Origin: Acidobacteriota bacterium
GTDB taxonomy: Bacteria; Acidobacteriota; Vicinamibacteria; Vicinamibacterales; UBA2999
Length of the DNA: 35,650 nucleotides
Reading direction: 5' to 3'
Assembly: GCA_021731165.1 (NCBI GenBank)
Contig: JAKFXY010000026.1
Span: forward strand, 1 to 35,650
The position numbers and the translations under genes are program-made. The notes below the pieces were generated by a model. That model did no database searches, was not told where the DNA came from, and worked only from the letters and a program-made list of their open reading frames with translations. Shown in pieces: positions 15,828 to 32,500 of this stretch (within the stretch, counting starts at the first letter, position 1; the number at the start of each line of letters is the position of its first letter).

Positions 15828-16616
15828 TCACCTGGAGCCGGTGAATTCCCCGGACGCTCGAAGCAGCCGGGCCCGGCCCCCCTCGTCGTCATCACCGTCA
15901 TGATTGCCAATGCGGAAGGCGTTGACTCGTTGCGTGACATCCCGCACGGCAACGGCCAATCGATAGTCGTTCACCATGAACAGCGCGAACTTCCATGCGC
16001 TTGCCGGCGCGCGATCCGCCAGTTCACACCGCAAAGACGTCGGGCCCTCGAACTCGAATGCGCACTCGTCGAGGCCAGCCAGCACCCCGTCTCCAGTCGC
16101 CTTGGCGTACGCCTCCTTCAGTGTCCAGAGCTCGACAAATCGCGCCCCCCGCTCGGCACCGCCGCAGCGTTCGACATCCGCCACCTCCGACGGCCTGAAG
16201 TGACGACGCGCGATGTCCAGATTGTCCACGCCGCCACTGACACGCTCGACGTCGATGCCCACGTCCACATCGTGTGCCACGACACACGCGACCAGCCCCC
16301 TGGCATGACTGAGATTGAACGACAGGCGCCGCCGGTCGTCATCGTGGTCGGCCAGAGCTGGCTTGCCGTTTCGTCCAGGGACGAACCGCCAGTCTCGAGC
16401 CTGGCGCTGCCCGTGCACCGAGAGCCGCCGCCGAAGCAGCAGATGCGCCGCCGCGAAATCGCGCCGGTCATGAGCGAACGCCAACCGGGCGTGCCGTGCC
16501 CGCTCGTCTTCCGACAGCAGGCCCAACGTGCGCTCGAGCGCGCGCTCATCGAGTTCTCGAGTCAGCCAATAGGCGATGTGCACCTCTGTATTCACGTCCG
16601 CCACGGCCGTCGTCAC
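15828..16616 (-). CDS. Sfp-type 4'-phosphopantetheinyl transferase
   Basis: The enzyme transfers 4'-phosphopantetheine from CoA to the carrier-domain serines of NRPS, here most plausibly Ser619, Ser1700 and Ser2796 of the NRPS encoded from 26575. The 262-residue length fits Sfp-type rather than AcpS-type. The three family motifs are visible: FNLSHARGLVACVV (about 100-113), the Mg-binding GIDVERV (120-126) and FVELWTLKEAYAKATGDG (160-177). GRNGKPAL precedes them, as usual. Its start overlaps the stop of the JmjC-type gene (ATGA), so the two are co-translated. The C-terminal 40 residues (FRIGNHDGDDDEGGRARLL...) are not family-like and may be a dispensable tail. Confidence 0.93.
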   Translation of the reverse strand: MTTAVADVNTEVHIAYWLTRELDERALERTLGLLSEDERARHARLAFAHDRRDFAAAHLLLRRRLSVHGQRQARDWRFVPGRNGKPALADHDDDRRRLSFNLSHARGLVACVVAHDVDVGIDVERVSGGVDNLDIARRHFRPSEVADVERCGGAERGARFVELWTLKEAYAKATGDGVLAGLDECAFEFEGPTSLRCELADRAPASAWKFALFMVNDYRLAVAVRDVTQRVNAFRIGNHDGDDDEGGRARLLRASGEFTGSR

Positions 16617-17593
16617 ATCCTCGCCGGCTGCCCAGCACCGTCAAGCAGGCTCGCTATGGCAGATTCCAATTCCCCGGTCTGAACGGCCTCGGGCTCCTCT
16701 TGAAACACACGACGCTCGGCCCTGAGCAATGCATCCAGGTCCAAATTGGCCGAGAGCGCGGCAATGCGCTCTTTGACCTGGATGACGATCGCCTCCAAGC
16801 CACCGCTCCCGCTCTCCAGCGACCACGGAACACGTCGCCGGAACTCGATGTCCTCCTCGGCGACTCGCTTGAGCGCCTTGGCGAGGAGCTCGGAAAACGT
16901 CAACGGGACGACACTGATGGTCAGATGCATCGATTCACGTTCGGTGCAGAACGCCTGATGCATCGCTCCACGCGGCAGGTAGAGCACGTCCCCCGGGGAC
17001 AACGCCATGGCCTCGGCTGGTGCGGTCGGCACGAAGCGATCCGGATCCCAATCGGTTTCCATCAGGGGCAGCTCCGTCTTGCCCGAGTACTCGTTGAAGA
17101 TCCGCCACTCCTTCCTCCCGATGCACTGGACGATGAACACATCGGTGATGTCGAAGTGCGGGGGGAAGCCGGTCTTGGTTGGCGGTGTCAGGTACAGATT
17201 GATCTGGGCTTGCGCCGTGAAATCCCGCCGCACCGCTTCCACGAAGCGATGGAGCCGCGCGTCGAACTTGTCCAGATCGCGAACGCGTATGGTGGACCCG
17301 CGTCGAAAACTGTCGGCGATCACGGCGAGGCCCGACTTGCCGCTCTTTCTCTGCAGGTCAACAAGCCTTCTCAATTGGCCATCGTCAAAGACATCGACGT
17401 TGCCCATGGGAATCCCTTCCCATTTGAACAACGACTCGAGCCTGGAGAGGCTATGGAGCGCGTCGAGCTGTTCCAGGTCGAGCGCGGCCTCGAATCGTGC
17501 CGCCTTCCTCTCCCGGACCTCGCTGTTGAACGCCTCGATAGTCATCCCGCCGATCAGGCTCCGGCTCAACAGCTGAGCATCGAAGACCGCCAT
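16613..17593 (-). CDS. JmjC/cupin-type Fe(II)/2-oxoglutarate oxygenase
   Basis: The 326-residue product belongs to the Cupin_4/JmjC fold group. The metal-binding facial triad is visible as His146-x-Asp148 in PPHFDITDVFIVQCIGRKEW and distal His212 in LSPGDVLYLPRGAMHQA. Relatives hydroxylate ribosomal protein residues or amino acids; NRPS-cluster members can act as tailoring hydroxylases. The start at ATG 17593 is decided by a near-perfect ribosome binding site, AAGGAGGT, six bases upstream; a longer frame to 17701 lacks one. It is co-translated with the PPTase gene and diverges from the mbtH-fhuDBC operon, so involvement in the NRPS pathway is likely. Substrate is unknown; beta-hydroxylation of an amino acid such as Asn is a hypothesis. 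Confidence 0.85.
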   Translation of the reverse strand: MAVFDAQLLSRSLIGGMTIEAFNSEVRERKAARFEAALDLEQLDALHSLSRLESLFKWEGIPMGNVDVFDDGQLRRLVDLQRKSGKSGLAVIADSFRRGSTIRVRDLDKFDARLHRFVEAVRRDFTAQAQINLYLTPPTKTGFPPHFDITDVFIVQCIGRKEWRIFNEYSGKTELPLMETDWDPDRFVPTAPAEAMALSPGDVLYLPRGAMHQAFCTERESMHLTISVVPLTFSELLAKALKRVAEEDIEFRRRVPWSLESGSGGLEAIVIQVKERIAALSANLDLDALLRAERRVFQEEPEAVQTGELESAIASLLDGAGQPARM

Positions 17594-17852
17594 GCGCCAC
17601 CTCCTTGCGGTTGCCCCGTCGGGCCGAACGAACACCCGGGTTGGGCTTCCATTATGAGGCCTGCGTCGAAGGCCGACAGCTTTGACGACACGCTCGGGCA
17701 CGATCCTGCCCGCCGCGTCCGCGTGCCATGCGCCACGCTACGCTCGGGCAATCCACGCGTCCTATCGATCCAGGCGATGGGCCATGTATGCTCTATAACC
17801 GTGCGGGTGACGCCGTTGCCAAGACGACGTCGCCAGACTGGAGCCTGCTGCA
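17594..17852. promoter_or_regulatory. Divergent promoter region of the NRPS accessory operons
   Basis: These 259 bp separate two divergent operons (JmjC-PPTase, and mbtH-fhuDBC) and must hold both promoters. A TATAAC at 17794-17799 could be a -10 box for mbtH but has no matching -35 hexamer. I looked for a Fur-box-like A/T-rich inverted repeat and found none. The AAGGAGGT of the JmjC gene lies at its left end and GGAG (17840-17843) before mbtH at its right end. Confidence 0.4.
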
Positions 17853-18095
17853 ATGACGAACCCGTTCGAGGATGAGAATGGTGACTACCTCGTGCTGGTC
17901 AACGAGGAGGGTCAGTACTCGTTATGGCCCGCATTTCTCGACATCCCGCTCGGCTGGAAGGCCACCGGCCCACGGGGCGATCGCAAGATCTGCCTCGCGT
18001 GGATTGACGAGAACTGGACCGACATGCGTCCGCTCAGCCTCGTCCGCCAGATGGAAGAGGATGCACGCGTTCGAAAATCTCAGCGGGACCGCTAG
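17853..18095 (+). CDS. MbtH-like NRPS accessory protein
   Basis: MbtH-like proteins bind NRPS adenylation domains and are often needed for their folding and activity. The 80-residue product is a full-length match to the family pattern: MTNPFEDENGDYLVLVNEEG at the start, QYSLWPAFLDIPLGWKAT with the conserved SLWP and PxGW tryptophans, then CLAWIDENWTDMRPLSL. The start ATG follows GGAG at 17840-17843. It is the first gene of the plus-strand operon with the siderophore-type transporter genes and lies 8.5 kb from the NRPS gene, its presumed partner. Presence of an MbtH gene in an iron-uptake operon is typical of siderophore clusters. Confidence 0.97.
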   Translation: MTNPFEDENGDYLVLVNEEGQYSLWPAFLDIPLGWKATGPRGDRKICLAWIDENWTDMRPLSLVRQMEEDARVRKSQRDR

Positions 18096-18137
18096 AAGCG
18101 TCCACGACACGCCCGCCGACGATTCTCCGTGAGTCCC

Positions 18138-19007
18138 ATGCTCGATCGTCGCCAGTTCGTCGCAGGTCTCGCCATGCTGCCGTGTCTTCCACGGCCCGCG
18201 GCGGCATCCACCGGCTTGCGCGTTGCGGCTTTGGACTGGGCGCTGGCGGAAACGATGATGGCGCTCGGACACACGCCCATCGCGATCGTCGCCGCGAGCG
18301 ACTGGAACCGATTCGTGGTCGAGCCGCGCTTGCCATCCGGCATCGCCGATCTCGGGCTGCAACCCGAGATCAACTTCGAACTGCTCGCCTCTCTCAAGCC
18401 CGACCTGATCCTCACCTCTCCATTTGTTCAGGACCTGGAGCCAGTGGTCCAACGGATTGCCGAGACCCTGCGGCTGTCGATCTTCGAGAAAGGGACCGTT
18501 CCCCTTGCGCGACCGCGTGCCTTGGCCAGAGTACTGGGCGAACGCCTCGGCCACGCCGAGGCGGCTCGAAGTCTTCTCGTCACCGCCGAGCACACGTTCG
18601 ACATGTACCGCGAGCGCATCACGGCGATCGCTCCTCCACCCGTCGTCCTCGTCAACTTCATCGACGCCAGGCATGTCCGGGTCTACGGAGGGGCTGGACT
18701 CTACCAAAACGTCCTCGATCGCATCGGTCTGGTGAACGCGTGGGCCGGCACGACCAACTATTGGGGATACTCCACCGTTGGCATCGAGACACTCGCCACC
18801 GACAGAGATCTGCGGTTGATCGCCTTCGAGCCGATTCCGGCTGACACGCGCCCGACGCTTCAGCGAAGCCCGCTGTGGTCTCGGCTGCCCTTCGTCCGGG
18901 CGGGACACGTCTCCGTCCTGCCGTCCGTCCTGATGTTCGGCGCCATGCCGTCCGCGCTGCGGTTCGCGCGGCTCCTCGTCGAGCACCTCGAACGCCTGCC
19001 ACGGTGA
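18138..19007 (+). CDS. fhuD: Iron-siderophore ABC transporter, periplasmic binding protein (FhuD-like)
   Basis: This protein should capture the ferric siderophore in the periplasm and hand it to FhuB. The N-terminus MLDRRQFVAGLAMLPCLPRPAAA carries a twin-arginine-type motif (DRRQFVAG) and hydrophobic stretch, cleaved near AAA. The mature part is a class III (TroA/FhuD-like) binding protein: LRVAALDWALAETMMALGHTPIAIVAASDW, then DLGLQPEINFELLASLKPDLIL, which is the usual family core. I chose ATG 18138 because it puts the RR motif in place; a GTG at 18129 is also possible. It follows mbtH by 42 bp, and its stop overlaps the permease start by 4 bp (GTGA). Specificity cannot be read from the sequence; a cobalamin or haem role is less likely given the context. 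Confidence 0.88.
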   Translation: MLDRRQFVAGLAMLPCLPRPAAASTGLRVAALDWALAETMMALGHTPIAIVAASDWNRFVVEPRLPSGIADLGLQPEINFELLASLKPDLILTSPFVQDLEPVVQRIAETLRLSIFEKGTVPLARPRALARVLGERLGHAEAARSLLVTAEHTFDMYRERITAIAPPPVVLVNFIDARHVRVYGGAGLYQNVLDRIGLVNAWAGTTNYWGYSTVGIETLATDRDLRLIAFEPIPADTRPTLQRSPLWSRLPFVRAGHVSVLPSVLMFGAMPSALRFARLLVEHLERLPR

Positions 19008-20998
19008 ACGTCGTCCACGCGCGTCATGGTCCGCCCGTCCTGTCCCTCGGGCTAGGCATCCTTGCGTTGGCGGCGGTGACCCTCCTGCTCGCGCGTCCCG
19101 TGTCGCACGTGCTGTCCGGTCCGGCCGCGCCCGCTGGATACGACGTCGAACGGATGATCCTGGTATACGCAACCTTGCCGCGCCTTGCGATCGCTCTCCT
19201 GTGCGGTGCCGGACTCGCCGCCTCAGGAGCCATTCTCCAGCAGGTCCTCAGGAATCCCCTCGCCTCGCCAACGACGCTCGGCATCGACGCCGGCGCACGG
19301 CTCGCCATCACGATGGCGACACTCTTCACGCCGTCGCTGCTTGGACTCGGCCGTGACATGGTGGCGCTGCTGGGCAGCGCCGCCTCGACGCTGCTCGTGT
19401 TCATACTCGTTCGGCGCCGTGGATTCTCGGCGCTCTCGATCATCCTGGCCGGCCTCGTCGTCAGCCTCTACTGTGGCGCACTGTCGGCCCTCCTCGTGCT
19501 CGTCAAGGACCGCGTGCTCGCGAGCCTGTTCATCTGGGGCAGCGGCTCACTCAGTCAGCAGAGCTGGGAGCCGAGTACGGCCCTGGCCTGGCGGCTGGGG
19601 ATCGTGGCGTTGCCGCTCCTCTTCCTCCTGCGTCCGCTGTCGCTCCTCGATCTCGGCGACGACAGCGTCCGCTCCCTCGGCCTATCCGTCACCCGGCTGC
19701 GCCTGACAGCCATCGCCATCGCCGCCGCACTCTCCGCATTCGTCACGAGTGCCGTCGGCGTCATCGGCTTCATCGGGCTCGTCGCGCCGATCATCGCGCG
19801 ACTCTCGGGCGCGCGGCGGTTCGGCGAGCGCCTCTTGTGGTCAACGATCATCGGTGCGCTGTTGCTCCTCCTGACCGACGCGACGCTGCAGATTCTCGCC
19901 GGTGTGTCTTCCGAGTTCGTGCCCACCGGCGCCGTCACGGCCGTGCTCGGATCTCCGCTCCTCCTCCTCCTCCTGCCGAGGCTGAACACCGCCGCGCCGC
20001 CGACGTCGTTCGCACCTGCGGGACGTGGGACGGCGACGACCCTGCCGCGCGTGCCTGCGCTGGCCGCGGTGGCGGTCTTTGTGCTGCTGGTCACTCTCAC
20101 CGTCCTCGTGGGCCGTAGTCCAACCGGAGCGTGGCAGATCGTCTCGATCGATCAATGGGACCAGGTGATGATCTGGCGATTGCCACGAATCGTGGCAGCC
20201 GCGGCGGCCGGCGCGCTGCTGGGCGTGGCCGGCCTCATCCTCCAGCGGTTGACCAACAACGAAATGGCGAGCCCGGAGGTACTCGGCGTAAGCGCGGGTG
20301 CGATCCTTGCGGTCGCGGTGTCCCTCTTCATGTTCGGGAGCCTCGCGCCCGTGAGCGAGAGTGTCGTGGCCGCGGTCGGCGGTGTCGTCGTCCTCGCGGC
20401 CATCCTTGCCTTCGGCAGCCGCTCCAGCTTCGCACCCGAGCGGGTGTTGCTGGCGGGCATCGCACTCAACGCGCTCATTGACGCCGTCGTCGGCATCATG
20501 TCGGCGACCGGAGACCCGCGTGCGATTCTCCTTCTTGGCTGGATGAGTGGATCGACAGGCGGCACGACAGCGGGCGATGCGGCGCAGGCGGGCATGGCGG
20601 CCGCGGTCCTCGTCGCGGTGAGCCTCCTCGCCGTCCGCTGGCTCGCCGTCCTGCCTCTCGGCGGGCCGCAGGCACGGGCACTTGGCGTCCCGCTCGCGCG
20701 CTCGCGCTTCCTGCTGCTGCTCCTGGCCGCGGTATTGACGGCGGCCGCGACACCCGTGATCGGCCCCTTGACGTTCGTCGGCCTCATGGCTCCGCACATC
20801 GTGCTCGCCATGGGAGTCAGACAGCCATTGCCTGCGCTCCTGGGCGCGGCGGCCGCCGGCGCCGGCGTGATGGCGGTGGCAGACTGGCTCGCGCGCACGG
20901 CGGCCTTCCCTCTTCAGTTGCCAACCGGCCTCGTCGCCGCGATGGTTGGAGCGCCCTTTCTGATGGTGCTCCTCAATCGCCGGAGCACATTCCCATGA
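19004..20998 (+). CDS. fhuB: Fused double permease of Fe-siderophore ABC transporter (FhuB-like)
   Basis: The 664-residue inner-membrane protein contains two FecCD-family permease halves in one chain, as in E. coli FhuB (660 residues), whereas most iron-siderophore systems use two separate subunits. The first half includes LPRLAIALLCGAGLAASGAILQQVLRNPLASPTTLGID and VGVIGFIGLVAPIIARL; the second repeats WRLPRIVAAAAAGALLGVAGLILQRLTNNEMASPEVLGVSAGA and TPVIGPLTFVGLMAPHIV. About 18-20 hydrophobic segments are evident. The GTG start at 19004 overlaps the fhuD stop (GTGA); a longer frame starts inside fhuD and is rejected. The stop overlaps the fhuC start (ATGA), so D, B and C are tightly coupled. 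Confidence 0.93.
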   Translation: MNVVHARHGPPVLSLGLGILALAAVTLLLARPVSHVLSGPAAPAGYDVERMILVYATLPRLAIALLCGAGLAASGAILQQVLRNPLASPTTLGIDAGARLAITMATLFTPSLLGLGRDMVALLGSAASTLLVFILVRRRGFSALSIILAGLVVSLYCGALSALLVLVKDRVLASLFIWGSGSLSQQSWEPSTALAWRLGIVALPLLFLLRPLSLLDLGDDSVRSLGLSVTRLRLTAIAIAAALSAFVTSAVGVIGFIGLVAPIIARLSGARRFGERLLWSTIIGALLLLLTDATLQILAGVSSEFVPTGAVTAVLGSPLLLLLLPRLNTAAPPTSFAPAGRGTATTLPRVPALAAVAVFVLLVTLTVLVGRSPTGAWQIVSIDQWDQVMIWRLPRIVAAAAAGALLGVAGLILQRLTNNEMASPEVLGVSAGAILAVAVSLFMFGSLAPVSESVVAAVGGVVVLAAILAFGSRSSFAPERVLLAGIALNALIDAVVGIMSATGDPRAILLLGWMSGSTGGTTAGDAAQAGMAAAVLVAVSLLAVRWLAVLPLGGPQARALGVPLARSRFLLLLLAAVLTAAATPVIGPLTFVGLMAPHIVLAMGVRQPLPALLGAAAAGAGVMAVADWLARTAAFPLQLPTGLVAAMVGAPFLMVLLNRRSTFP

Positions 20999-21798
20999 TT
21001 GCTGAATCAGAAGGTCACGTCATGGCGCTCGAGGGTGTCACCGTCGAGGTGTCCGGCAATATTCTGCTCGAGCCATTGACCATGGCGTTTCCTGACAGCG
21101 GGATCGTGGGGCTGGTCGGCCAGAACGGGTCCGGGAAATCCACGCTGCTGAGAGTGCTTTCGCGCCAACTGGCGCCGACGCACGGCACGATCCGGTTCGG
21201 TGGCAAGCCACTGAAGTCCTGGGGTGAGCGCGACTTCGCCCGCAAGGTTGCCTACCTGCCGCAACACACCCCGCTGGCCGCCGGCCTGAAGGTCCGTGAG
21301 CTCGTCGCACTTGGCCGCTATCCGTGGCACGGCGCGCTCGGCCTCTTCCGGAGTGTCGATCGGGAGAAGGTGGACGAGGCCCTGACGCTCACGTCAACCG
21401 ACGTCTTCGCCGACCGCCTCGTTGACACGCTCTCCGGCGGTGAGCGGCAACGCGTCTGGCTCGCCATGCTCATCGCGCAGGACGCCAGGCTGCTGCTGCT
21501 CGACGAACCGATCTCGGCCCTCGACGTCGCCCACCAACTCGAGGTCTTGGCGCTCGTGCGCCGTCTCAGCCAGGACAAGGGCATCGCCGTCGTGGTCGTC
21601 ATCCACGAGATCAACCTGGCGGCGCGCTTCTGCGACGAGATCGTCGCCCTCAAGAGCGGGCGGCTCGTCGCTCATGGCCCACCCGACGAGTTCATGACGG
21701 CCAGGCGGCTCGAAGAGATCTACGACGTCAACATGGGCGTCTTTCCACATCCCGATACTGGCGAATCCATCGCCTTCGTCCGGACGCGGGATCGCTGA
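20995..21798 (+). CDS. fhuC: Fe-siderophore ABC transporter ATPase (FhuC-like)
   Basis: This cytosolic ATPase powers import through FhuB. The 267 residues hold a complete ABC domain: Walker A GQNGSGKST (42-50), Q-loop in AYLPQHTPLAAGLKVRELVALGRYPWHG (the ALGRYPW segment is typical of FecE/FhuC/BtuD ATPases), signature LSGGERQR (about 145-152), Walker B LLLLDEPISALD and the switch histidine in VVVIHEIN. The start overlaps the fhuB stop by 4 bp. An internal ATG (residue 10) would remove a non-conserved leader but leaves the domain intact. It converges on the Rieske oxygenase gene with a 12-bp gap. No TonB-dependent outer-membrane receptor is in the window. Confidence 0.95.
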   Translation: MIAESEGHVMALEGVTVEVSGNILLEPLTMAFPDSGIVGLVGQNGSGKSTLLRVLSRQLAPTHGTIRFGGKPLKSWGERDFARKVAYLPQHTPLAAGLKVRELVALGRYPWHGALGLFRSVDREKVDEALTLTSTDVFADRLVDTLSGGERQRVWLAMLIAQDARLLLLDEPISALDVAHQLEVLALVRRLSQDKGIAVVVVIHEINLAARFCDEIVALKSGRLVAHGPPDEFMTARRLEEIYDVNMGVFPHPDTGESIAFVRTRDR

Positions 21799-21810
21799 GC
21801 AGGCCGATCG

Positions 21811-23022
21811 CTAGAGGGGAACGCCAATCGCCCTGGCGATGTGGCGGTGCAGGGACTGGAGCGCAAGCTCGTTGCGACCGTAGACAACCGTGAAGCCCGC
21901 GGGCGCACTGACGAGGTTCGCATAGCCATCGACGGCGACGCGGTAGTCTTCCCGCGTAACGTCACTCTCCGCGTCGTCCTGGGCAAACTCGCCGGCACGG
22001 TCTCCATCCGCACGAACGCCGCGCAAGGCGTAGACCTCAATGCGGCAGGACATCGTGCCTGGCGTCTGGCCTGGAAAGATTCTGAACATCCGCACGAAGG
22101 CACCACCGGGCCCGCCCGATCCGACGACAACAACGGTATTGGGGAAGAGAAAGTGGACCCCGCCATAGTCGGCTTCCGGCCATTCGCTTTCGGGCAACCC
22201 GACCAGTGCCTTGACGCGTCTGTCCGGAAAATTGATCCGCCAGTGCGGCCCGAAATCATCGAACACGGCGACATTGCCATAGTGGCTGACACCGATCGTG
22301 GAGGCATGCAATGTGGCGAAGTGGTAGCCCTCGCCGTATGTGTCGAGGGCACATTTCCAGTTGCAGTCAGCGGCGAGCGAGCTCGATCTGATCGGCGCCG
22401 CGTCAGCCAGCTCGAGCTGCGCCAGCTCGGGAGCGAATGCGCCAAGGTACGCCGGAATGTCGAGTTCGTCCGACCCCGCCGCCGCCCGCACGAAGACGAT
22501 GCCGTTCCACTCCGCCACGGGCACCTGAATGAGATTGCGCCGGCTCATATCGATGCCCTCGAAGCCCTGCCGGCCCGGCACCCCGACAAGAGAGCCATCG
22601 AGCTCGAAGGTCCAGGCGTGGAACGGGCACGTCATCCGGCCACGACGCTCGCAGGTCCCATCCGCGCCGGCGCGGACGAGCTTCGTGCCGCGATGCGTGC
22701 ACATGTTGAGGAAGGCACGAAGGACGCCGTCCCTACCCCGCACAATGACGATGGACTGTCCGAACTCCTCGAACAGCAAGCTGTCGCCCGGCCTCGGGAC
22801 AGCCCGTGACAGGCCGGCAACCAGGGGGACCTTGAGGAAGATCTCGCGTCTCTCCAGCTCCGCTCGCGCGGGATCCGTGTAGGCGGCCGGATCGTTCTCG
22901 AGGGGGCCCGACGCGAAATCGGTCGTCCCGCCTGCCGCGACATGCGCCACCATTCGGCGTTGGATGGCCCGCGCGACTCGCCGGCGCCGTTCGGCGCTAT
23001 CGGCCGGTGTGATGTCGTTCAT
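21811..23022 (-). CDS. Rieske non-haem iron oxygenase, alpha subunit type
   Basis: The 403-residue product has a Rieske [2Fe-2S] domain (about 60-180) with ligands Cys108-x-His110 and Cys132-x2-His135, and a catalytic SRPBCC-type domain (about 200-400) with mononuclear iron ligands His234 and His239 in DTYGEGYHFATLHAST. The spacing between the two Rieske ligand pairs is 21 residues, longer than the usual 15-17, and includes an extra Cys124. Such enzymes hydroxylate, dehydrogenate or cyclise using electrons from a separate reductase, none of which is encoded nearby. ATG 23022 is chosen because AAGGA lies six bases upstream; an in-frame ATG at 23043 and a frame reaching 24360 lack that support. 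It diverges from the P450 pair and is a likely tailoring enzyme of the NRPS product. Confidence 0.9.
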   Translation of the reverse strand: MNDITPADSAERRRRVARAIQRRMVAHVAAGGTTDFASGPLENDPAAYTDPARAELERREIFLKVPLVAGLSRAVPRPGDSLLFEEFGQSIVIVRGRDGVLRAFLNMCTHRGTKLVRAGADGTCERRGRMTCPFHAWTFELDGSLVGVPGRQGFEGIDMSRRNLIQVPVAEWNGIVFVRAAAGSDELDIPAYLGAFAPELAQLELADAAPIRSSSLAADCNWKCALDTYGEGYHFATLHASTIGVSHYGNVAVFDDFGPHWRINFPDRRVKALVGLPESEWPEADYGGVHFLFPNTVVVVGSGGPGGAFVRMFRIFPGQTPGTMSCRIEVYALRGVRADGDRAGEFAQDDAESDVTREDYRVAVDGYANLVSAPAGFTVVYGRNELALQSLHRHIARAIGVPL

Positions 23023-23133
23023 GAACTGTCCTTCTGCCGTCATGACGAGGGACTCATGCGGGTGGGTCCAGAAAACTATATCGTTGTTCGCGCGCCGGCC
23101 CGGATTTCGCCAGAGCGCGTGGTCGGATCCACA

Positions 23134-24381
23134 ATGTTGCGAAACTCCATGACGCGTTCCGCGGCCGTCCCGTCGCATGTTCCTCCCGAGTGCGTGGTCG
23201 ATGTCGATCTCTACCGGATGCCTGGCGCCGAACAGGACCTCCATTTTCCATGGAAGCAACTGCAGGATTCCTCGCCCCGAGGTCTCGTCTGGACGCCGCA
23301 TAACGGCGGCCACTGGATCGTCACCCGGGGACGAGACATCGCGCGCATCTACGCCGACCACGAAAACTTTTCCTCGCACATCACCATCGTGCCGCGGCAA
23401 TGGGGCGAGCGGTTCCCGCTGCGGCCCACGACGCTCGATCCTCCCGAGCATCGCCCGTTCCGGCGACGGCTCAATGCCGCCCTCTCCCCGGCGGTGGTCC
23501 GCTCCGCGCAGCCACGGATCCGGAAGCTCGCCATCGAGGCGATCGAGCGGATACGAATGCGCGGTCGATGTGAATTCGTCTCCGAGTTTGCCGAGCAGCT
23601 CCCGCTTGGCGTCTTCCTGCATCTTGCCGATCTTCCCGTGGATGGCGCGACCGGGCTTCCTGGCTATGCGGAGGATCCAATCCGGGCCGACGGCTCGACG
23701 ACGGACGTCCCGATCATGGACAGGTTTGCCGGCTATCTGCGCCCCCATGTCATCGAGCGGCAGCGGCATCCCGGCGATGACCTGATCAGTCGATTGGTCG
23801 CCGGCGCGATGGACGATCGCGAGCTCACCGAAGACGAGGCGGTGGAGATCTCCACGGCCGTGCTGACCGGCGGCCTCGACACGATCGTGTCCTCCCTTGG
23901 CCTGATGATGGCCTTCCTCGCTCGCAACCCCGCGCACCGCCGCCGCCTGATCGCCGAACCGGCGACGATCCGGCCGGCCGTTGCCGAGATGCTGCGCCGG
24001 TTTCCCATCATGACCAAGGCGCGGCTCGTGACCCGAGACCAGGACATCGAGGGTGTGACGGTAAAGGCCGGCGAGATGATCGTGTTGCCGCCGCTGCACG
24101 GCCTGGACGACCACGAGTTCGACGACCCTCTGACGGTCGACTTCGATCGGCCGCCGGCACCGAATTCGACCTTCGGCAATGGTGTGCATCGCTGTCCAGG
24201 CGCGCTTCTCTCCCAGGCGGAGCTGGAGATCACGCTCGACGAGTGGCTCGCGCGGATTCCCGAGTTCGAGATCGATCCGGTTCGACCGCCGACGATGAAG
24301 GGCGGCGTCCTTGGCGCGCTCCTCACACTCGAGCTGCGGTGGGAGCCCATGGCGGCACACTCCCCTCGCTCGACAGCGTAG
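23134..24381 (+). CDS. Cytochrome P450 (first of tandem pair)
   Basis: The protein is a soluble bacterial-type P450 of about 415 residues. It has the PPEHRPFRRRLNAALSP segment, an I-helix TGGLDTIVSS retaining the acid-threonine pair, ExxR as EMLR and the haem-ligand loop FGNGVHRCPGALL with Cys354. In the I-helix the residue after the catalytic Thr is Ile rather than the more usual Thr/Ser. The 5' end is uncertain: ATGs at 23134 and 23149 fit homology (VPPECVVDVDLYRMPG), while ATG 23056 has an AGGGA ribosome-binding-like site but adds 26 unfamiliar residues. The gene ends 9 bp before the second P450, and the two are surely co-transcribed. No ferredoxin or reductase gene is in the window. Confidence 0.92.
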   Translation: MLRNSMTRSAAVPSHVPPECVVDVDLYRMPGAEQDLHFPWKQLQDSSPRGLVWTPHNGGHWIVTRGRDIARIYADHENFSSHITIVPRQWGERFPLRPTTLDPPEHRPFRRRLNAALSPAVVRSAQPRIRKLAIEAIERIRMRGRCEFVSEFAEQLPLGVFLHLADLPVDGATGLPGYAEDPIRADGSTTDVPIMDRFAGYLRPHVIERQRHPGDDLISRLVAGAMDDRELTEDEAVEISTAVLTGGLDTIVSSLGLMMAFLARNPAHRRRLIAEPATIRPAVAEMLRRFPIMTKARLVTRDQDIEGVTVKAGEMIVLPPLHGLDDHEFDDPLTVDFDRPPAPNSTFGNGVHRCPGALLSQAELEITLDEWLARIPEFEIDPVRPPTMKGGVLGALLTLELRWEPMAAHSPRSTA

Positions 24382-24390
24382 GGAACCTGA

Positions 24391-25641
24391 GTGCCAGATT
24401 CACACCTCCAGACACGCGCGACCCGCGAAGCGGAAGACACTCCCATTGCCGCTCTGGACGTAAGCCGAGTCGATCGTTTTCAAGCCAACACCCATTGGCC
24501 ATGCTTCACCCGGCTGCGCCGGGAAGAGCCGGTGCACTTCTGCCCCGAGAGTGTGCATGGGGCGTATTGGTCCGTCACCCGCCTTGACGACATCCTCGCC
24601 GTGGAGACGAACCATCGCCAGTTCTCATCGGAACGGAACGTGATCATCGGAGACGTCCCCGCCACCTTCGACGCGACGCGTGCATTTGCGACGGCCGACC
24701 CGCCGGAGCACACGCGCGAGCGCAAGGCCGTCACGCCCGCGATGTCGCCACAGCGAGTGGCGACCCTCGAGGCACGGACCAGAGCCAATATCGGCGCGGT
24801 GCTCGACGGATTGCCACTGGACGAGACCTTCGATTGGGTGGAGCGTGTGTCGGTTGAGCTCACCACCCAGATGGTGGCGATGCTCTTCGACTTTCCCTGG
24901 GAGGAGCGGAGGCTGCTGCCCTACTGGTCAGAGGTACTGGTGACAACGCCGCAGGTCGGTGCGATCACGACGACAGCGGTGGAGCGCGACGCGATCGTCA
25001 ACGAGTATCGCTCCAGGATTCTGGAGATGTGGCGCGCGCGCGCCGGCGAGTCGCCGGGCGACGACATCATCTCGGCCCTCGCTCACAACCCGGACACCGC
25101 GGGAATGATCGAGGACCCGTCGCATCTCATCGGAACGGTCTCGCTCGTGGCAGGTGCCAATGAAGCGTCGCGGGGCGCCCTGTCCGGAAGCATCGTCGCG
25201 TTCAATCAGTTCCCTGGAGAGTGGGAGAGATTGCGGGCCGACCCTTCTCTCGCCTCGAATGCCGCTGCCGAGATTGTCCGCTGGCAGACACCAATTTCCC
25301 ACATGCGGCGGACCGCGGTGGAGGACGTCGAGTTCCGGGGCCGACTGATCCGCAGAGGCGACCGTGTGGTGATGTGGTACTGCTCAGGCAATCGCGATGA
25401 GGCCTATTTCGAGGACGGCGATGCCTTGCGGATCGCGCGTCCGAACGCGCGCCGGCATGTGGCGTTCGGCGGCGGCATCCATCGCTGCTTGGGCAGCCAT
25501 GTCGCCGAGATGCAGCTTCGCGTCCTGCTGGAAGAGATCCTCAAGCGCTTCACGCTCGTCGAATTGGCGGCCGAGCCGAGGCGCAAGGCGTCAAACTTCT
25601 CCGCCGGCTTTGACCAGGTGCTGGTGCGGATTCCGTCGTGA
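24391..25641 (+). CDS. Cytochrome P450 (second of tandem pair) with altered I-helix
   Basis: The 416-residue product is a class I-type bacterial P450. DPPEHTRERKAVTPAMSPQRV (103-123) is the usual C-helix region, E294-x-x-R297 is present, and the haem loop is FGGGIHRCLGSHVA with Cys366. The I-helix reads LVAGANEASRGAL (252-264), where relatives have GGNETTR: the conserved Thr that guides oxygen activation is Ala259, followed by Ser260. This suggests substrate-assisted or otherwise unusual oxygen chemistry. The start is GTG 24391, with AGGGA seven bases upstream and only 9 bp after the first P450. It converges with the CmcJ-like gene. Sequence outside the I-helix is divergent from the first P450, so this is not a recent tandem duplicate. 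Confidence 0.92.
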   Translation: MPDSHLQTRATREAEDTPIAALDVSRVDRFQANTHWPCFTRLRREEPVHFCPESVHGAYWSVTRLDDILAVETNHRQFSSERNVIIGDVPATFDATRAFATADPPEHTRERKAVTPAMSPQRVATLEARTRANIGAVLDGLPLDETFDWVERVSVELTTQMVAMLFDFPWEERRLLPYWSEVLVTTPQVGAITTTAVERDAIVNEYRSRILEMWRARAGESPGDDIISALAHNPDTAGMIEDPSHLIGTVSLVAGANEASRGALSGSIVAFNQFPGEWERLRADPSLASNAAAEIVRWQTPISHMRRTAVEDVEFRGRLIRRGDRVVMWYCSGNRDEAYFEDGDALRIARPNARRHVAFGGGIHRCLGSHVAEMQLRVLLEEILKRFTLVELAAEPRRKASNFSAGFDQVLVRIPS

Positions 25642-25680
25642 ACCGACGATGAGCCGGCCCTCCTTGTTGAAGTGAGCCGC

Positions 25681-26511
25681 CTATCCGTCAAAGAAGGCAA
25701 TCGCGCGTTGGTCCATGCTTTCGCGCGGCGGGGCGTCGGGCGGGCAACCCGGGTCGTCGAAGGCCGCGTGGGGCACGCTGGTCGCGCGGCCTCGATCGGA
25801 ATCAAAGCCCTTGAACACCAGCAATTCGTCGCGGGTCATGTTCGAGAAATAGCACCAGCGGTGACTCGGGTCGTAGCGGAACATGCTGTTCTCGAAACTG
25901 AACGCCTGCTCGCCCTCCGGATCGACCACGCAATCGGAGCACACCTGGTCGTGCGGTCCAACGCTGCGCGCGTCGCACACGGCGAGCGGCGTGTCCTGCG
26001 GTGGATCCGACAGGACCCGCCACAACGTATAGATGGCAAAGCGCCGGCCGAGGCGCTCCTTCGCCTCCTCACGCGGCAACATCCGCTCGACCCAGAAGCT
26101 GGACCCGGCCGGGTTGGGGCTGAAGTCGCAGTGGGCGAACCGCCCTGGAACCGTCGTTCCGTCCTTGCCGAAGCCGGGCGAGCGTTCGCTGCGGCGGATG
26201 ACACCGCCGGTAAACGCCACCACCTTCGCCGCTCCGGTCAGCCTTCTCACCAGCTCCTCGAGCTCGCGGAGATAGATGTCGCGCACCAGCGCGGGATCGA
26301 AGAAATCCCCCACCGCGCTCCGGTGCGGCACGAGGGCAAAGCCCTCGCGGTCGAGCGAAAACGAGTCCGAGGCCGACCGTACATCCTCGACCCGCACGGC
26401 GCGCGCCTCGAGAGGTAGATTGTCCAGGTCCTTCCTGCGACCGTGGTAGATCGGCTTGCCCTGGCAGGGCCCGAGGTACGTAATCGTCGTCTCCAGGATT
26501 CGCCTTGTCAT
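25681..26511 (-). CDS. CmcJ/NvfI-family Fe(II)/2-oxoglutarate oxygenase
   Basis: The 276-residue product matches the CmcJ/NvfI family by pattern. Members include the CmcJ component of cephamycin methoxylation and fungal endoperoxide- or hydroxyl-forming enzymes. The N-terminus ETTITYLGP is typical. A candidate metal triad is His127-x-Asp129 (GRFAHCDFSP) and His248 in ATSVPHAAFDDP, with Arg242 nearby for 2-oxoglutarate binding. WRVLSDPPQDTPLAVCDARSV and WCYFSNMTRDELLVFKGFDSD are also family-like. I prefer ATG 26511, next to GGAGGAG on the minus strand; two upstream ATGs at 26523 and 26535 lack a ribosome binding site. It diverges from the NRPS gene across 63 bp, so co-regulation is likely. Reaction and substrate are unknown. 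Confidence 0.82.
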   Translation of the reverse strand: MTRRILETTITYLGPCQGKPIYHGRRKDLDNLPLEARAVRVEDVRSASDSFSLDREGFALVPHRSAVGDFFDPALVRDIYLRELEELVRRLTGAAKVVAFTGGVIRRSERSPGFGKDGTTVPGRFAHCDFSPNPAGSSFWVERMLPREEAKERLGRRFAIYTLWRVLSDPPQDTPLAVCDARSVGPHDQVCSDCVVDPEGEQAFSFENSMFRYDPSHRWCYFSNMTRDELLVFKGFDSDRGRATSVPHAAFDDPGCPPDAPPRESMDQRAIAFFDG

Positions 26512-26574
26512 GCTCCTCCGCATTGTGGGAGGCATGAAATACTACCGTGACGGGCCTTTGGGCGGGGGACGGAG

Positions 26575-29500
26575 ATGGACGAGAGCGAGCCGCTCCTTGC
26601 GGCACCGGCTACGGACGAGCCGACAGGCAGAGGCGCCGACGTCCCGAGCGACGCGGTGCGCGCTCGCTCCGTGCCGCCGCACTCATCTCGGGTTCAGCCG
26701 TCACAGGAGCGCCGCCAGTTCGGGCACGACTTCGACCTCACAGCCGCACGCGTTCCCGAGACGACGCTCGTCGGCTTCTTCGAGCGACAGGTCGCGCGAA
26801 CGCCAACGAGCCTCGCGCTCGTCACTGACCACGAAGCACTGACTTACGCCGCGCTCGACGCACGCGCGAACCAACTCGCCTGGAGGCTCATTGCCGACGG
26901 TATCGGACCGGAGGATCTCGTCGCGATCTATCTGGACCCTTCGCCGGACATGCTCGTCGCGCTCCTCGCCGCTCTCAAGGCCGGCGCCGCGTACGTGCCG
27001 CTGGACACGAGGCATCCGGTCCAGCGCGTGGCCTTCATACTCGACGACACCACGCCCAGGCGGATCCTGACGAGCATCGACCTCAGCGCGCGTCTTCCGA
27101 ATGTCGCGCGCCGCCTCGAGCTCGTCCTTGACGCCCCGGACGTTGCCACGGAGCTCGCCGGCTTCACGGCATCCGCTCCGACCGACGCCGATCGCGTCAT
27201 GCCGCTGCGGCCCCAACACCTCGCATACGTCATGTGCACGTCGGGCAGCACCGGAACGCCCAAGGGTGTCGCCGTCACGAACGCCGGAGTCAGCAACGCC
27301 ATTCATGCACGTGTCGCGTTCTACGGCGAGGAGATCAAGGCGCTCGGTCTTTGGTCATCCATATCGTTCGATATCGCCGTCGCGCAGATCTTCTGGGCCT
27401 GGTCATGTGGGGCGGCGTTGGTTCTTCCCCCGGCTCGCGCGGAAGACACTCCCGACGCCCGGTTCGAGCGGGAACTGCAGCAGGGCATCACGCATCTGAT
27501 GCTGCCGGCAGCGCTCTACGCCCATCTCCTGGCGGCGCGGCACGGGCGCGACGCGCACGCACTGCGCGCGGTCGTTGTCGGAGGGAATGCGCTGCAGGCG
27601 CAGACGGTCAGACAGCATGGTGACATCTTCGGAGACGTCAGCCTGTTCAACGAATATGGCGTGACGGAGGCGTCCATCTGGAGCACGGTCTGGCGGTGCG
27701 GCGCCGGCTCTGACGGCGACACCTCGCCGATTGGCGCGCCAATCGCGAACACGCGCGTCTACGTGCTCGACGCGTCGCTGCGGCCGTGTCCCGTGGGAGT
27801 CGTGGGCGAGTTGTACATCGGCGGCGCTGGTCTCGCGCGCGGCTACTGGGCCAGGCCGGGGCTGACGGCTGAGCGATTCGTCGCCAGTCCCTTCGGGTGC
27901 GAGCCGGGTGAGCGGCTCTATCGTACGGGCGACCTGGGGGCCACTCGTGAAGATGGCGCGCTGATCTTCCATGGCCGCGTCGATCAGCAAGTCAAGATCC
28001 GCGGCTTCCGTATCGAGCCCGGCGAAATCGAGACGGCCCTGCTCCGCGAACCCGCGCTCGCCCAGGCGGCGGTCGTCGCGCGCGACGACGTCGCCGACGA
28101 TCCGCGCCTCGTGGCCTATCTCGTCCCTCACAGGGACGCGACGCATGCGTCTGCACCGCTCGGTCTCCACTCTCTGCGCCAGCGCCTCGCCGCGTCTCTG
28201 CCGGACTACATGGTGCCGGCGGCCTTCGTCGTGCTCGACGCGTTGCCGCTCACCTCCAACGGCAAGCTCGATCGCCAGGCGCTGCCCGCGCCTCAAGGTT
28301 CGGGCCTGGCTGCCGACTATGTCGCGCCGGGCACGCCCGACGAGATCGTGCTGTGTGAGCTTGTCGCGGCATTGCTCGGGATTACGCGGGCAGGCCTCGC
28401 CGATCACTTCTTTCATCTGGGCGGCCACTCGTTGCTGGCCACGCGCCTGGCCGCGCGGATCCGCGTCCGGTTCGGCCGCGAGCTGCCGATCCGCACGATC
28501 TTCGATCGACCCGTGCTCGGCGACCTTGCCAAGGCACTGGACGCGCTCCCCAAGGCTGGTCCACTGTTGGTGCCGCAGCCACGGCCCGCCGTGCTGCCGA
28601 TGTCATTCGCGCAGACACGGCTTTGGTTCCTGCACAAGCTCGAGGGCGCGAGCCCGGCGTATCACATCCCCGTGGCCGTTCGCCTGGCCGGCCCACTTGA
28701 CAGGGCGGCCCTCGCCCTGGCGATCGAGGATGTGTGCCGCCGCCATGAGAGCCTCCGCACCCTGCTGGTTGAAGGCGACATGGGACCGGAGCAGCGCATC
28801 CTCCCGCCGTCCGCGGTCTCCGAGCCACTGCCAACGGTCACAAGCAGCATCCACACCATCGAGGACGACCTCGCGGCGGCGTCAGCGCGCGGATTTGACC
28901 TCACCACTGAACCCCCGTTGCGCGCCACGCTGTTCCGACTCGGCCCTGACGATCACGCGCTCCTGCTGCTCCTTCATCACAGCGCCGCGGACGGCTGGTC
29001 GATCGCGCCGCTCCTCGACGATCTGGCCAGCGCCTATGCCGCGAGAGTGATGGGCGCCGCGCCCGCTTTCCCCGCGCTGCCGATTCAATACGCCGACTAC
29101 ACCCTCTGGCAGCGCGCGCTGCTCGGCCGCGAGGACGACGGGGCCAGTCCACTCGCCCGTCAGATCGCGTACTGGACGAGGCAGCTTGCCGGCGTGCCCG
29201 TCGAATTGCCGCTGCCCACGGACCGGTCTCGACCCCAGACCCCAAGCTTCGCCGGTGGTGTCGTCGAGATCGCGTTGCAGCCGGCGTTGCACGCGCAGCT
29301 CCAGGACATGGCTCGTGCCCACGGCGCCACACTCTTCATGCTCCTGCAGGCGGCGCTTGCAGCGCTGCTGACCAGGCTTGGCGCCGGCACGGACATCGCG
29401 ATTGGCTCCCCTATCGCCGGCCGGACCGACACCGCGCTCGATCGCCTCGTCGGCTTCTTCGTGAACACGTTGGTGCTGCGCACCGACACCAGCGGCAACC

Positions 29501-32500
29501 CGACGTTTCTCGAGTTGCTCGCACGCGCCCGCGCCACCTGCCTGGAGGCGTACTCTCATCAGGATCTCCCTTTCGAACGCGTGGTCGAGCTGCTCGACCC
29601 GCCTCGCGTGGTTGGCCGGCAGCCGTTGTTCCAGACCATGCTCGTCCTTCAGCCCACGACCCAGCCGCAACTGGCGCTGCCGGGTCTGCGGGCAGTCGCG
29701 CTCCCGCCTCGCGACCGCACCACCAAGTTCGATCTGGTGTTCACCTTCACGGAGACGCAGGACGCGGCCGGCCGGACCGCCGGACTGCTTGGTGAGCTCG
29801 AGTACAGCATCGACCTCTTCGATCGCCGTTCCGCCTCGCGCCTCGCCGAGCGGCTCACCCGTCTGCTGGAACAGGTTGCGGCTGATCCCTCCGTGCCCGT
29901 GCATCGACTCGAGATCCTGGCCCCCCTCGAGCGCCAACGACTCGTCCACGATTCTGGCGCCACCGCCCAGCGCGGCCCCGAGGCGACACTCGCCGACCGA
30001 TTCGAGCGGCAGGTCGCACAGGCGCCGAACCGCGAAGCCTTGATCGTCGAAGACGCGGCGCTGACCTACGCCGTGCTCGACGCGCGTGCCAATCAGCTCG
30101 CCTGGCGGCTCCTCGCCGAGGGCATCGGACCCGAGGACTTCGTCGCAATCTGCCTGGAGCGCTCGTTCGAGATGGTCGTCGCTATTCTGGCGACTCTCAA
30201 AACCGGCGCCGCCTATGTCCCGCTCGACCCAGACACACCTGCCGCGCGTCTCGCGTTCATGCTGGCCGACGCTCGACCCCGGCGGCTCCTGACGACAACC
30301 AGGCTCGCCGCGCGGTTTCCGGTCGCGACACCAGCCCTCCGCCTCGACGACCCGGCGGTCGTGTCGGATCTCGCCCGCCTCCCTGTCGCCGCACCGGGCG
30401 ACGCCGATCGCCCCACGGCCCTGCAACCGGCACACCCCGCGTACCTGATCTACACCTCGGGCAGCACGGGCCGTCCCAAAGGTGTCGTGATCACTCAGCG
30501 AAATGTCGTCCGGCTGTTCGACGTGACGAGGCGTTCGTTCCGCTTCGACGAGAACGACACCTGGACGATGTTTCACTCGTACGGTTTCGACTTCTCGGTG
30601 TGGGAGCTCTGGGGCGCATTGCTCCACGGTGGGCGTCTGGTCATCGTGCCCAAGGACGTCGCCAGGTCCGCCGAAGCGTTTCGAGCCCTTCTCGTCCGCC
30701 ACGCCGTAACGGTGCTCAACCAAACACCTTCGGCCTTCTACCGTTTGACACAGGCAGACGAGGAGGCGGGCGAAGCGGCGGAGAGTCTTGCGCTCCGCAC
30801 GGTCGTCTTCGGCGGTGAGGCACTCGATCTTCGCCGATTGGATCGCTGGTACACGCGTCATGCCGAGAGTCGTCCACGGCTCGTGAACATGTATGGCATT
30901 ACGGAGACCACCGTCCACGTCACCTACATGCCGCTCGACCGCGAGCTTTCGGCCTCGAGCGCCGGCAGCCCGATCGGCGTCGGGCTGTCCGACCTGCGTG
31001 TGTACGTGCTCGACGCGGGGTTGCAGCCGTGCCCGGTTGGCGTCTTCGGAGAGGTGTATGTGGCCGGCGCCGGTCTCGCGCGCGGTTACTGGGACCGGCC
31101 CGGGCTGACCGCCGAACGGTTTGTCGCCAATCCTTTTGCGAACGAGCCGGGCGAGCGGCTTTATCGCTCGGGCGATCTTGCCGCGTGGCGGCACGATGGC
31201 TCTCTAACCTTTCGTGGCCGCGCCGACCAGCAGGTCAAAATCCGCGGCTTCCGGATCGAACCCGGCGAGATCGAAACCGTCTTGCTGCGCGAGCCCGCCA
31301 TCGCCCAGACGGCAGTCGTCGCCCGCGAGGATCTGACTGGCGACCAGAGCCTCGTTGCCTACCTCGTGCCCCGGACGGATCCATCAGGAGAGGCTGGAGC
31401 CATCGATCTCCTGGCCCTGCGCGCGCGCCTCGCCGCGGTATTACCGGACTACATGGTGCCGGCGGCGTTCGTCGTCCTGGACGCGCTGCCGCTGACGCCC
31501 AACGGGAAGCTGGATCGCGCGGCGTTGCCCGCACCTGAAGGGTCCGGCCTGGCCACCGGCTATGTGGCACCGGCGACGCCAGACGAGATCGTGCTCTGCG
31601 AGCTGGTTGCCTCGCTGCTCGGCGTGGCGCGAGTCGGGCTCGCCGATCACTTCTTCCATGTCGGCGGCCACTCATTGTTGGCCACCCGCCTGGCCGCGCA
31701 GATCCGGCATCGACTCGGGCGTGAGCTGCCGATCCGCGCGATCTTCGACACGCCGGTGCTGGGGGATCTGGCGCGCGCGCTCCGCACGCTCCCGAAGGCC
31801 GGCCAGCCGCTGGGGCCGCAACCCAGGCCCGCGGTGCTGCCGCTGTCCTTCGCGCAAGCACGATTGTGGTTTCTCCACCAGCTCGAAGGCGCGAGCTCGC
31901 TGTACCAAGTCCCGGTCGCGGTCCAACTGACCGGCGCGCTCGACGTCCCGGCGCTGGCCCGAGCGCTGGACGATGTGCGGGCGCGCCACGAGAGTTTGCG
32001 CACGCTGCTCGTCGACGACGACGATGAGCCGGAGCAGCGCGTGCTGCCAGCCGACTCGCTCCCCACGCTGCTGCAGATTGTGACGAGTACTGCCGGTGCC
32101 GTGGACGACGAGCTCGAAGTGGCAGCCGCGCGCGGCTTCGATCTCGCGAAGGAAGTCCCATTTCGCGCCACGTTGTTCCAGCTTGGGCCCGACGAGTACG
32201 CGCTGCTGCTGCTCCTCCATCACAGCGCCGCGGATGGCTGGTCGATCGCGCCGCTGCTCGACGACCTCGCGACCGCCTATGCCGCGCGGGTGACGGGGAC
32301 GGCGCCGGCCTTCCCGCCGCTGCCGGTTCAGTACGCCGACTACACCCTCTGGCAGCGTGCCTTGCTCGGCCGCGAAGAGGACCCGGCCAGTCCGATCGCC
32401 ACGCAGATCGCCTACTGGACCACGCAGCTCGCCGCGCTGCCCGTGGAGCTGGCGCTGCCCACGGATCGGCCGCGGCCGCGGACGCCGAGCTATGCGGGCG

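Follow-up and report, generated by a model that had tools for sequence, protein, structure and literature searches.

When hydroxylated residues are expected in a metallophore made by a nonribosomal peptide synthetase (NRPS), the enzymes usually sought are NRPS beta-hydroxylases of the TauD type. Among JmjC enzymes, NO66 (RIOX1) and MINA53 (RIOX2) are histidine C-3 hydroxylases of ribosomal proteins (PMC4556315, PMC9994133). In peptide natural products, a JmjC-like route of the cupin_8 kind to the hydroxy-Asn and hydroxy-Leu of the laxaphycins, which are NRPS products, was proposed in 2020 (PMC7524897; see also PMC8471579), and JmjC ornithine hydroxylases of ribosomally synthesized and post-translationally modified peptides (RiPPs) were reported in 2025 (PMC12707348, PMC12257519). 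What, then, is to be made of a JmjC gene that stands at the edge of an NRPS cluster? This article describes such a gene in contig JAKFXY010000026.1 of an Acidobacteriota bacterium (assembly GCA_021731165.1), positions 1 to 35,650, a stretch that was analysed whole and is called the window below. At a probability of about one half, its product would be a tailoring C-beta hydroxylase of a metallophore-like NRPS peptide: an enzyme of the ribosomal-oxygenase (ROX) type, without the C-terminal winged helix, that was added to the cluster.

The gene itself is real, and its HxD...H iron ligands are intact, as a sequence-only reading of the window had stated. Its 326-residue product matches the Pfam profile JmjC_2/Cupin_4 (PF08007) at E 6.8e-26 (score 90.7 bits, cut-off 22), and His146, Asp148 and His212 are present in every row of three alignments (17/17, 55/55 and 115/115 rows). 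The largest of these adds 10 Streptomyces and Mycolicibacterium proteins to a set of 105, the window's own protein and Escherichia coli RoxA being included; the 105-row set omits duplicate or overlapping loci (L005, L006, L029-L039, L100, L124, L017), proteins shorter than 270 residues and proteins with internal stops. Position 161 is Lys in 114 of the 115 rows, and this lysine presumably binds 2-oxoglutarate (2OG), as expected from ROX structures. A Shine-Dalgarno-like motif precedes the gene (Table 1), and its stop shares four nucleotides (GTGA, 16613-16616) with the start of a phosphopantetheinyl transferase (PPTase) gene, which makes co-translation, also claimed in that first reading, a fair inference. 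Composition does not single the gene out (GC 61.6%, 78.6% at third codon positions). The PPTase is confirmed by Pfam (ACPS, PF01648) and is the only Sfp-type enzyme found in the source genome (assembly 86.67% complete), in which a second PF01648 match, a frame of 172 residues, was taken as AcpS from its length.

The nearest solved structures by sequence are NO66 (E 7e-26), MINA53 (3e-18) and YcfD (1e-7). An AlphaFold2 model, calculated from the 55-row alignment (the window protein plus 54 proteins from 53 of 80 named loci), reached a pLDDT of 91.1 and a pTM of 0.88. It superposes on NO66 with a Z score of 25.6 over 311 residues (root-mean-square deviation 5.2), ahead of MINA53 (24.4), YcfD and YcfD-like proteins (19-20), YxbC (19.8) and JMJD5 (15.5). 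Sequence and model both point to a diverged protein of the NO66/MINA53 type. The sequence-only reading had argued instead by analogy with FIH. As a template FIH was rejected on sequence, the Cupin_8 (PF13621) score being 20.4 bits, below the cut-off of 27.4, and the fold comparison probably leads the same way: the best-placed FIH row stands at rank 43 in Foldseek with a TM of 0.39, and no FIH entry occurs among the 50 listed rows of the structure comparison, which excludes nothing by itself. NO66 and MINA53 being nearer in sequence, and apparently in fold, FIH is the more distant analogue, with C-3 chemistry as the common point; by analogy with the nearest characterised relatives, hydroxylation at the beta carbon is a part of the original proposal that may well hold. 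It is very unlikely that the protein is inactive or performs another 2OG-dependent reaction such as desaturation or demethylation. It does sit on a long branch, residue 150 is Thr where 99 of the 115 rows have His, and desaturation by FIH has been noted (PMC9994133), but none of the iron and 2OG ligands is altered, the ribosome-binding site is good and the pLDDT of the model is high.

Which residue could such an enzyme meet on this assembly line? The specificity codes of the three adenylation (A) domains in the window are DIA-VGEIW (A1), DFWNVGMVH (A2) and DLTKIGEVG(K) (A3); DFWNxGMVHK is a Thr code. Asn at module 3, as predicted earlier, agrees with the placing of codes of the A3 type among Asp/Asn-activating domains, although beta-cyano-alanine is also compatible (PMC12283262). 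The fhuDBC genes suggest an iron-binding product, so that the peptide may be metallophore-like. The TauD profile (PF02668) found nothing in the source genome or in that of the sister cluster described below (0/2), and the JmjC protein itself has no TauD match, so the usual beta-hydroxylation route is not visible. With a Rieske-type oxygenase, two cytochromes P450 and a CmcJ-family protein beside the JmjC enzyme, five oxygenases could oxidise the peptide.

In NO66, the reported contacts to the Rpl8 peptide include Arg297, Asn326, Tyr328 and Ser421, of which Tyr328 and Ser421 hold the target histidine (PMC4556315). Mapped by hand count on the pairwise alignment, they correspond to R103, N132, Y134 and S227 of the JmjC protein, and all four are kept. 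The offset of that alignment also fits the NO66 iron ligands H340, D342 and H405. The R-N-Y-S combination is found in one of the 115 rows, that of the window itself, while INYG occupies 64 and VNYG 21; Ser at 227 and Arg at 103 are each seen in two rows, window included. Arg272, Thr274, Gln260 and Tyr577 are further NO66 contacts, the last lying beyond the part covered by the model. In one study, NO66 and MINA53 did not convert Asn216 and Asn39 peptides, and in simulations the Asn side chain was too short for Ser421 and Ser257, respectively, while Asn or Gln might in theory take part in the same network of hydrogen bonds (PMC9994133). On these residues the pocket would suit Asn less well than a longer side chain able to form hydrogen bonds, although four residues cannot fix a substrate. 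A His-like or other residue, supplied by A1 or a later module (for instance a beta-hydroxy-His serving as metal ligand), would suit the NO66-type residues and the iron-binding product that the fhuDBC genes suggest. We nevertheless hold it unlikely as the target: no His code was recognised, at A1 or elsewhere, a sister cluster that lacks the JmjC gene has DIA-IGEIW at A1, the modules beyond the contig have been only partly read, and two further NO66 contacts have changed.

This sister cluster, traced through its CmcJ protein, belongs to a genome (G003, 94% complete) of the same family but another genus. Identity to the window is 76% for fhuD, 68% for fhuB, 64% for fhuC, 64% for the Rieske protein, 70% and 68% for P450s a and b, 69% for CmcJ and 59% for the NRPS; mbtH is also present, and gene order and strands are identical. 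Its A codes (DIA-IGEIW, DFWNIGMVH, DLTKIGEVG) match the window's three, Asn included. Yet a protein search at E 1e-3 found no JmjC counterpart in that genome, and tblastn on the contig, which covers the homologous place, gave no diverged copy (best E 0.56 at a limit of E 50). The lone PF08007 match there, a 208-residue cupin on another contig (C162) beside a second small cupin, scored 21.4 bits, or 22.9 with in-frame neighbours, against the cut-off of 22; it was rejected by eye, as it reads HRHLAEE and not HxD. Nor is there a PPTase gene beside the sister cluster, other PF01648 genes of that genome lying elsewhere. The JmjC-PPTase pair was therefore gained in the window's lineage or lost in the other, and the two clusters, which differ by the JmjC gene and for the rest agree where they were compared, offer a natural knock-out comparison. 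The sister also bears directly on beta-hydroxylation of the module 3 Asn, free or carrier-bound, as first proposed. In favour of that proposal are the Asn-type A3 code, the C-3 chemistry of the nearest relatives, the lack of any TauD-family protein found in the source genome and the laxaphycin hydroxy-Asn, which has been attributed, as a proposal, to JmjC-like cupin_8 enzymes (PMC7524897, PMC8471579). We consider it quite unlikely even so: the sister, with its Asn code unchanged and the four remaining oxygenases present, has no JmjC counterpart, so the Asn-coding module does not require one; the Ser for which Asn was too short in NO66 and MINA53 is kept here, and those enzymes were inactive on Asn peptides (PMC9994133); and the P450s, the Rieske oxygenase and the CmcJ-family protein are equal candidates. 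What stands of the overall proposal is a JmjC oxygenase in an NRPS cluster with an Asn-coding module, its gene overlapping that of the PPTase; the choice of FIH and of Asn is not supported.

Relatives of the JmjC protein are sparsely distributed, being found in 5 of 59 relatives (E 1e-3), in 24 of 162 genomes from the order (E 1e-5; identity no higher than 36% outside the own genome) and in 15 of 396 genomes of the phylum (E 1e-10), the own genome counted each time; phage records gave no match. From this distribution, and with none of the other relatives close, a housekeeping gene was judged unlikely. Best-segment identities are 25-39% for the best 80 named loci, out of 357 that were confirmed. 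These counts bear on the idea that the enzyme hydroxylates a ribosomal or other cellular protein, possibly for self-protection, and is a mere neighbour of the cluster. Its nearest characterised relatives do act on ribosomal proteins, and neither the JmjC nor the PPTase gene adjoins the sister cluster. Such a role is doubtful: the distribution is that of an accessory gene, the uL2 of the source genome, the one ribosomal site looked at, reads HPLGGGEGKTSGG, without NHxH, so that a NO66-type target in uL2 was rejected, the residues of RoxA at the compared positions are not kept, and the winged helix is missing.

This last feature sets the protein apart from ribosomal oxygenases in the strict sense, whose C-terminal winged helix is absent here. 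After position 258 the window protein has 68 residues, against a median of 141 in the 105-row set; fewer than 100 were counted in 7 of the 115 rows (the window, L043_923, two proteins each in L171 and L173, and, less clearly, L097). The model matches NO66 only up to NO66 residues 532-542, its helices 233-247, 266-283, 286-298 and 308-319, candidates for the helical dimerisation region that follows the JmjC domain in a ROX, falling in the part that aligns, and since the PPTase start overlaps the JmjC stop there is no room for a further C-terminal domain. RiPP recognition element (RRE)-like domains fused to PF08007 domains have been reported from fish and algae, bacterial homologues occurring in RiPP-like settings (PMC12710340). 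We infer that this RRE-like domain is the winged helix missing here; if so, lacking a docking domain would be in keeping with a substrate that has no leader peptide.

The neighbourhoods of relatives agree in part with the RiPP-like settings. Of 104 plasmid records with a match, 11 neighbourhoods were read, and 10 neighbour proteins from four named genome loci were scanned with Pfam. Clear RiPP genes stand in three of the plasmid neighbourhoods (Paraburkholderia, YcaO/TfuA/ThiF; Pseudanabaena, LanM and Nif11; Streptomyces, YcaO-TfuA) and at two of the four genome loci, both Nostoc (YcaO-TfuA; YcaO/ThiF). The other eight plasmid neighbourhoods are non-peptide or ambiguous, one having a Nif11 precursor about 4 kb away, and no RiPP marker was seen among the neighbour proteins scanned at L045 and L046. 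Several of these loci deserve mention in their own right. L173 (8857-10688) and L171 (7784-9624) each carry paired short JmjC_2-like proteins of 287-322 residues, without winged helix and with the pocket K-Y/F-F-T, next to an AAC(3)-family gene and, in L173, YcaO-TfuA; this is apparently a type of RiPP cluster with two short JmjC_2-like enzymes. A conserved set recurs across the three Streptomyces plasmids L169, L172 and L174 (an S9 peptidase, a carbamoyltransferase, a DinB protein and one or two JmjC-related cupins, with an M13 peptidase in L169 and L174). In Paraburkholderia, four JmjC-related cupins share one YcaO-TfuA-ThiF cluster with an O-methyltransferase (L043, 923-13062).

As we picture it, a JmjC_2 oxygenase, diverged but of the ROX type and without its winged helix, would have joined a metallophore-like NRPS cluster, where, with Fe(II), O2 and 2-oxoglutarate, it would place a hydroxyl group on the C-beta (C-3) of one peptide residue, either on the carrier protein or after release of the peptide. 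The candidate residues would be the Asn of module 3, which is possible but not favoured, the A1 unit or a residue from the modules beyond the contig. The fold, the iron and 2OG ligands, the four NO66-like contacts, the missing winged helix, the PPTase overlap, the cluster context and the absence from the sister cluster come directly from the computations, while the hydroxylation, its position, the peptide substrate and the direction in which the winged helix changed are proposed. A narrower version, in which a ROX-type JmjC_2 enzyme was stripped of an RRE-like winged helix and recruited, NO66 contacts kept, for C-beta hydroxylation of a His-like or amide side chain on the assembly line, by a route distinct from TauD, is put forward only tentatively.

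Several observations weigh against a tailoring role. The NO66 contacts Leu299 and Asn376 fall, by hand count, on R105 and D181 and are not kept. The only sister cluster found lacks the gene, although a tailoring enzyme confined to one lineage does not have to be conserved; because neither gene adjoins that sister, whose three A codes agree with the window's, JmjC and PPTase could form a neighbouring operon outside the pathway. The other four oxygenases are common to both clusters and could do any hydroxylation. No condensation domain lies in the available flanks (up to 10 kb, and in many cut by contig ends) of the 80 best named loci, 43 of which span at least 20 kb, and two (L109, L115) have an A-domain-like match only. 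In the FastTree phylogeny, which has weak support, the protein is the third longest of 105 tips, with no firm placement. Finally, some relatives in RiPP clusters lack the winged helix as well, so that its absence is not NRPS-specific, and the pair beside YcaO-TfuA in L173 makes the docking-domain argument for an NRPS substrate a weak one. Should the tailoring role nonetheless be true, a ribosome-modifying enzyme type would have turned into an NRPS tailoring enzyme, perhaps by shedding a peptide-docking domain, and another family would have to be watched when hydroxylated metallophore residues are predicted.

Table 1. Coordinates of the JmjC gene and of the surrounding cluster in the window
Feature	Position	Strand	Basis or remark
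JmjC_2 (PF08007) Fe(II)/2OG oxygenase, 326 aa, without C-terminal winged helix	16613..17593	-	Pfam, alignments, model
Shine-Dalgarno-like AAGGAGG	17600..17606	-	sequence, 6 nt before JmjC ATG
Sfp-type phosphopantetheinyl transferase	15828..16616	-	Pfam; GTG start overlaps JmjC stop (GTGA)
MbtH-like protein, divergent from JmjC gene	17853..18095	+	similarity
FhuD-like periplasmic binding protein	18129..19007	+	similarity
FhuB-like permease	19004..20998	+	frame open from 18875; GTG 19004 taken as start
FhuC-like ATPase	20995..21798	+	similarity
Rieske ring-hydroxylating-type oxygenase	21811..23022	-	homology, start approximate
Cytochrome P450 a	23134..24381	+	similarity, start approximate
Cytochrome P450 b, SolI-like	24391..25641	+	similarity
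CmcJ/NvfI-family oxidoreductase	25681..26535	-	similarity, E 1e-80
NRPS A1-T-C-A2(Thr code)-T-C-A3(Asn code)-T-Cy(partial)	26575..35650	+	runs off contig end
A3 adenylation domain, code DLTKIGEVGK	33200..34700 (approximate bounds)	+	code reading
Partial condensation/cyclisation domain, DxxxxD (DALLLD at 35527) not HHxxxDG	35143..35649	+	

Among the features of Table 1, the start of fhuB was chosen by analogy with the sister-cluster gene and overlaps the fhuD stop (GTGA), and the DxxxxD motif is typical of cyclisation (Cy) domains. The combination of MbtH, FhuDBC, a Rieske oxygenase, two P450s, a CmcJ-family protein and an NRPS in two syntenic Acidobacteriota clusters (window 17853-35650 and the sister) is an observation of its own. 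No named product is known to us for this set, at which no literature search was aimed, and searches of the open-licence literature around CmcJ with nonribosomal peptides and around solanimycin turned up no account of such a cluster. SolI, the solanimycin P450 proposed to oxidise a polyketide C-2, was considered for analogy only (PMC10204066). The CmcJ/NvfI-family protein is rare, in 2 of the 162 genomes of the order (E 1e-5, own included) and 1 of the 396 drawn from the phylum (E 1e-20), namely the window's own.

The synthetase itself probably continues elsewhere. An identical stretch of 127 nt, inside the cyclisation-type domain, ends both the window contig (35524-35650) and contig C125 of the source genome, where a partial MSLIW-type A domain is followed by a further Asn-code module (DLTKIGEVG); from this shared end and these modules, the synthetase probably has repeated Asn-Cys-like modules, which break the assembly. 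Contig C123 has a DLFNMSLIW A domain and then two condensation-type domains, DLFNxSLIWK being a Cys code. NRPS pieces with a thioesterase-like GWSFG motif occur on C36 of the source genome and on C44 of the sister genome; together with that on C123, these are possibly the remainder of the same assembly lines.

Set beside the known systems, the JmjC protein resembles NO66 and MINA53 in its JmjC_2 fold, its iron and 2OG ligands and the four NO66 contact residues. It differs from NO66 in sequence (about 26% identity), in the missing winged helix and the lost Leu299 and Asn376 contacts, and in its setting, a bacterial NRPS cluster in a genome whose uL2 lacks NO66's NHxH site. E. coli YcfD/RoxA and the YcfD-like uL16 arginine hydroxylases are bacterial and share the fold, but RoxA has the pocket L/L/I/G instead of R/N/Y/S, an Arg at the position of Lys161, and keeps its C-terminal part. 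Bacillus subtilis YxbC (1vrb, 7zcc; 341-342 residues) is a JmjC oxygenase of similar length at 18-20% identity; the 1vrb entry is titled putative asparaginyl hydroxylase, and no paper on YxbC as a JmjC enzyme was found in the open-licence literature. The laxaphycin enzymes LxaF and LxaG, proposed Leu and Asn hydroxylases, are JmjC-like and belong, as here, to an NRPS cluster with an Asn module, but they are cupin_8 (PF13621) and not PF08007 proteins, are cyanobacterial and remain a proposal (PMC7524897). BipG and PbsQ of the biphenomycin-type RiPPs are likewise JmjC enzymes that hydroxylate a peptide natural product, with a RiPP precursor as substrate and Orn as target, and are likened here by description, not by sequence (PMC12707348, PMC12257519). 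A JmjC route would thus be only partly new, against the plain novelty claimed in the sequence-only reading; searches of the open-licence literature found no description of a PF08007 enzyme in an NRPS cluster. That reading had included neither the four further oxygenase genes nor the JmjC-less sister cluster nor the missing winged helix. While the Asn target that it proposed is unsupported, the interest of the locus lies in the repurposing of an enzyme type and in the natural pair of clusters with and without it. The TauD/SyrP-type NRPS beta-hydroxylases would give the same kind of product, but they belong to a family different from that of the JmjC protein.

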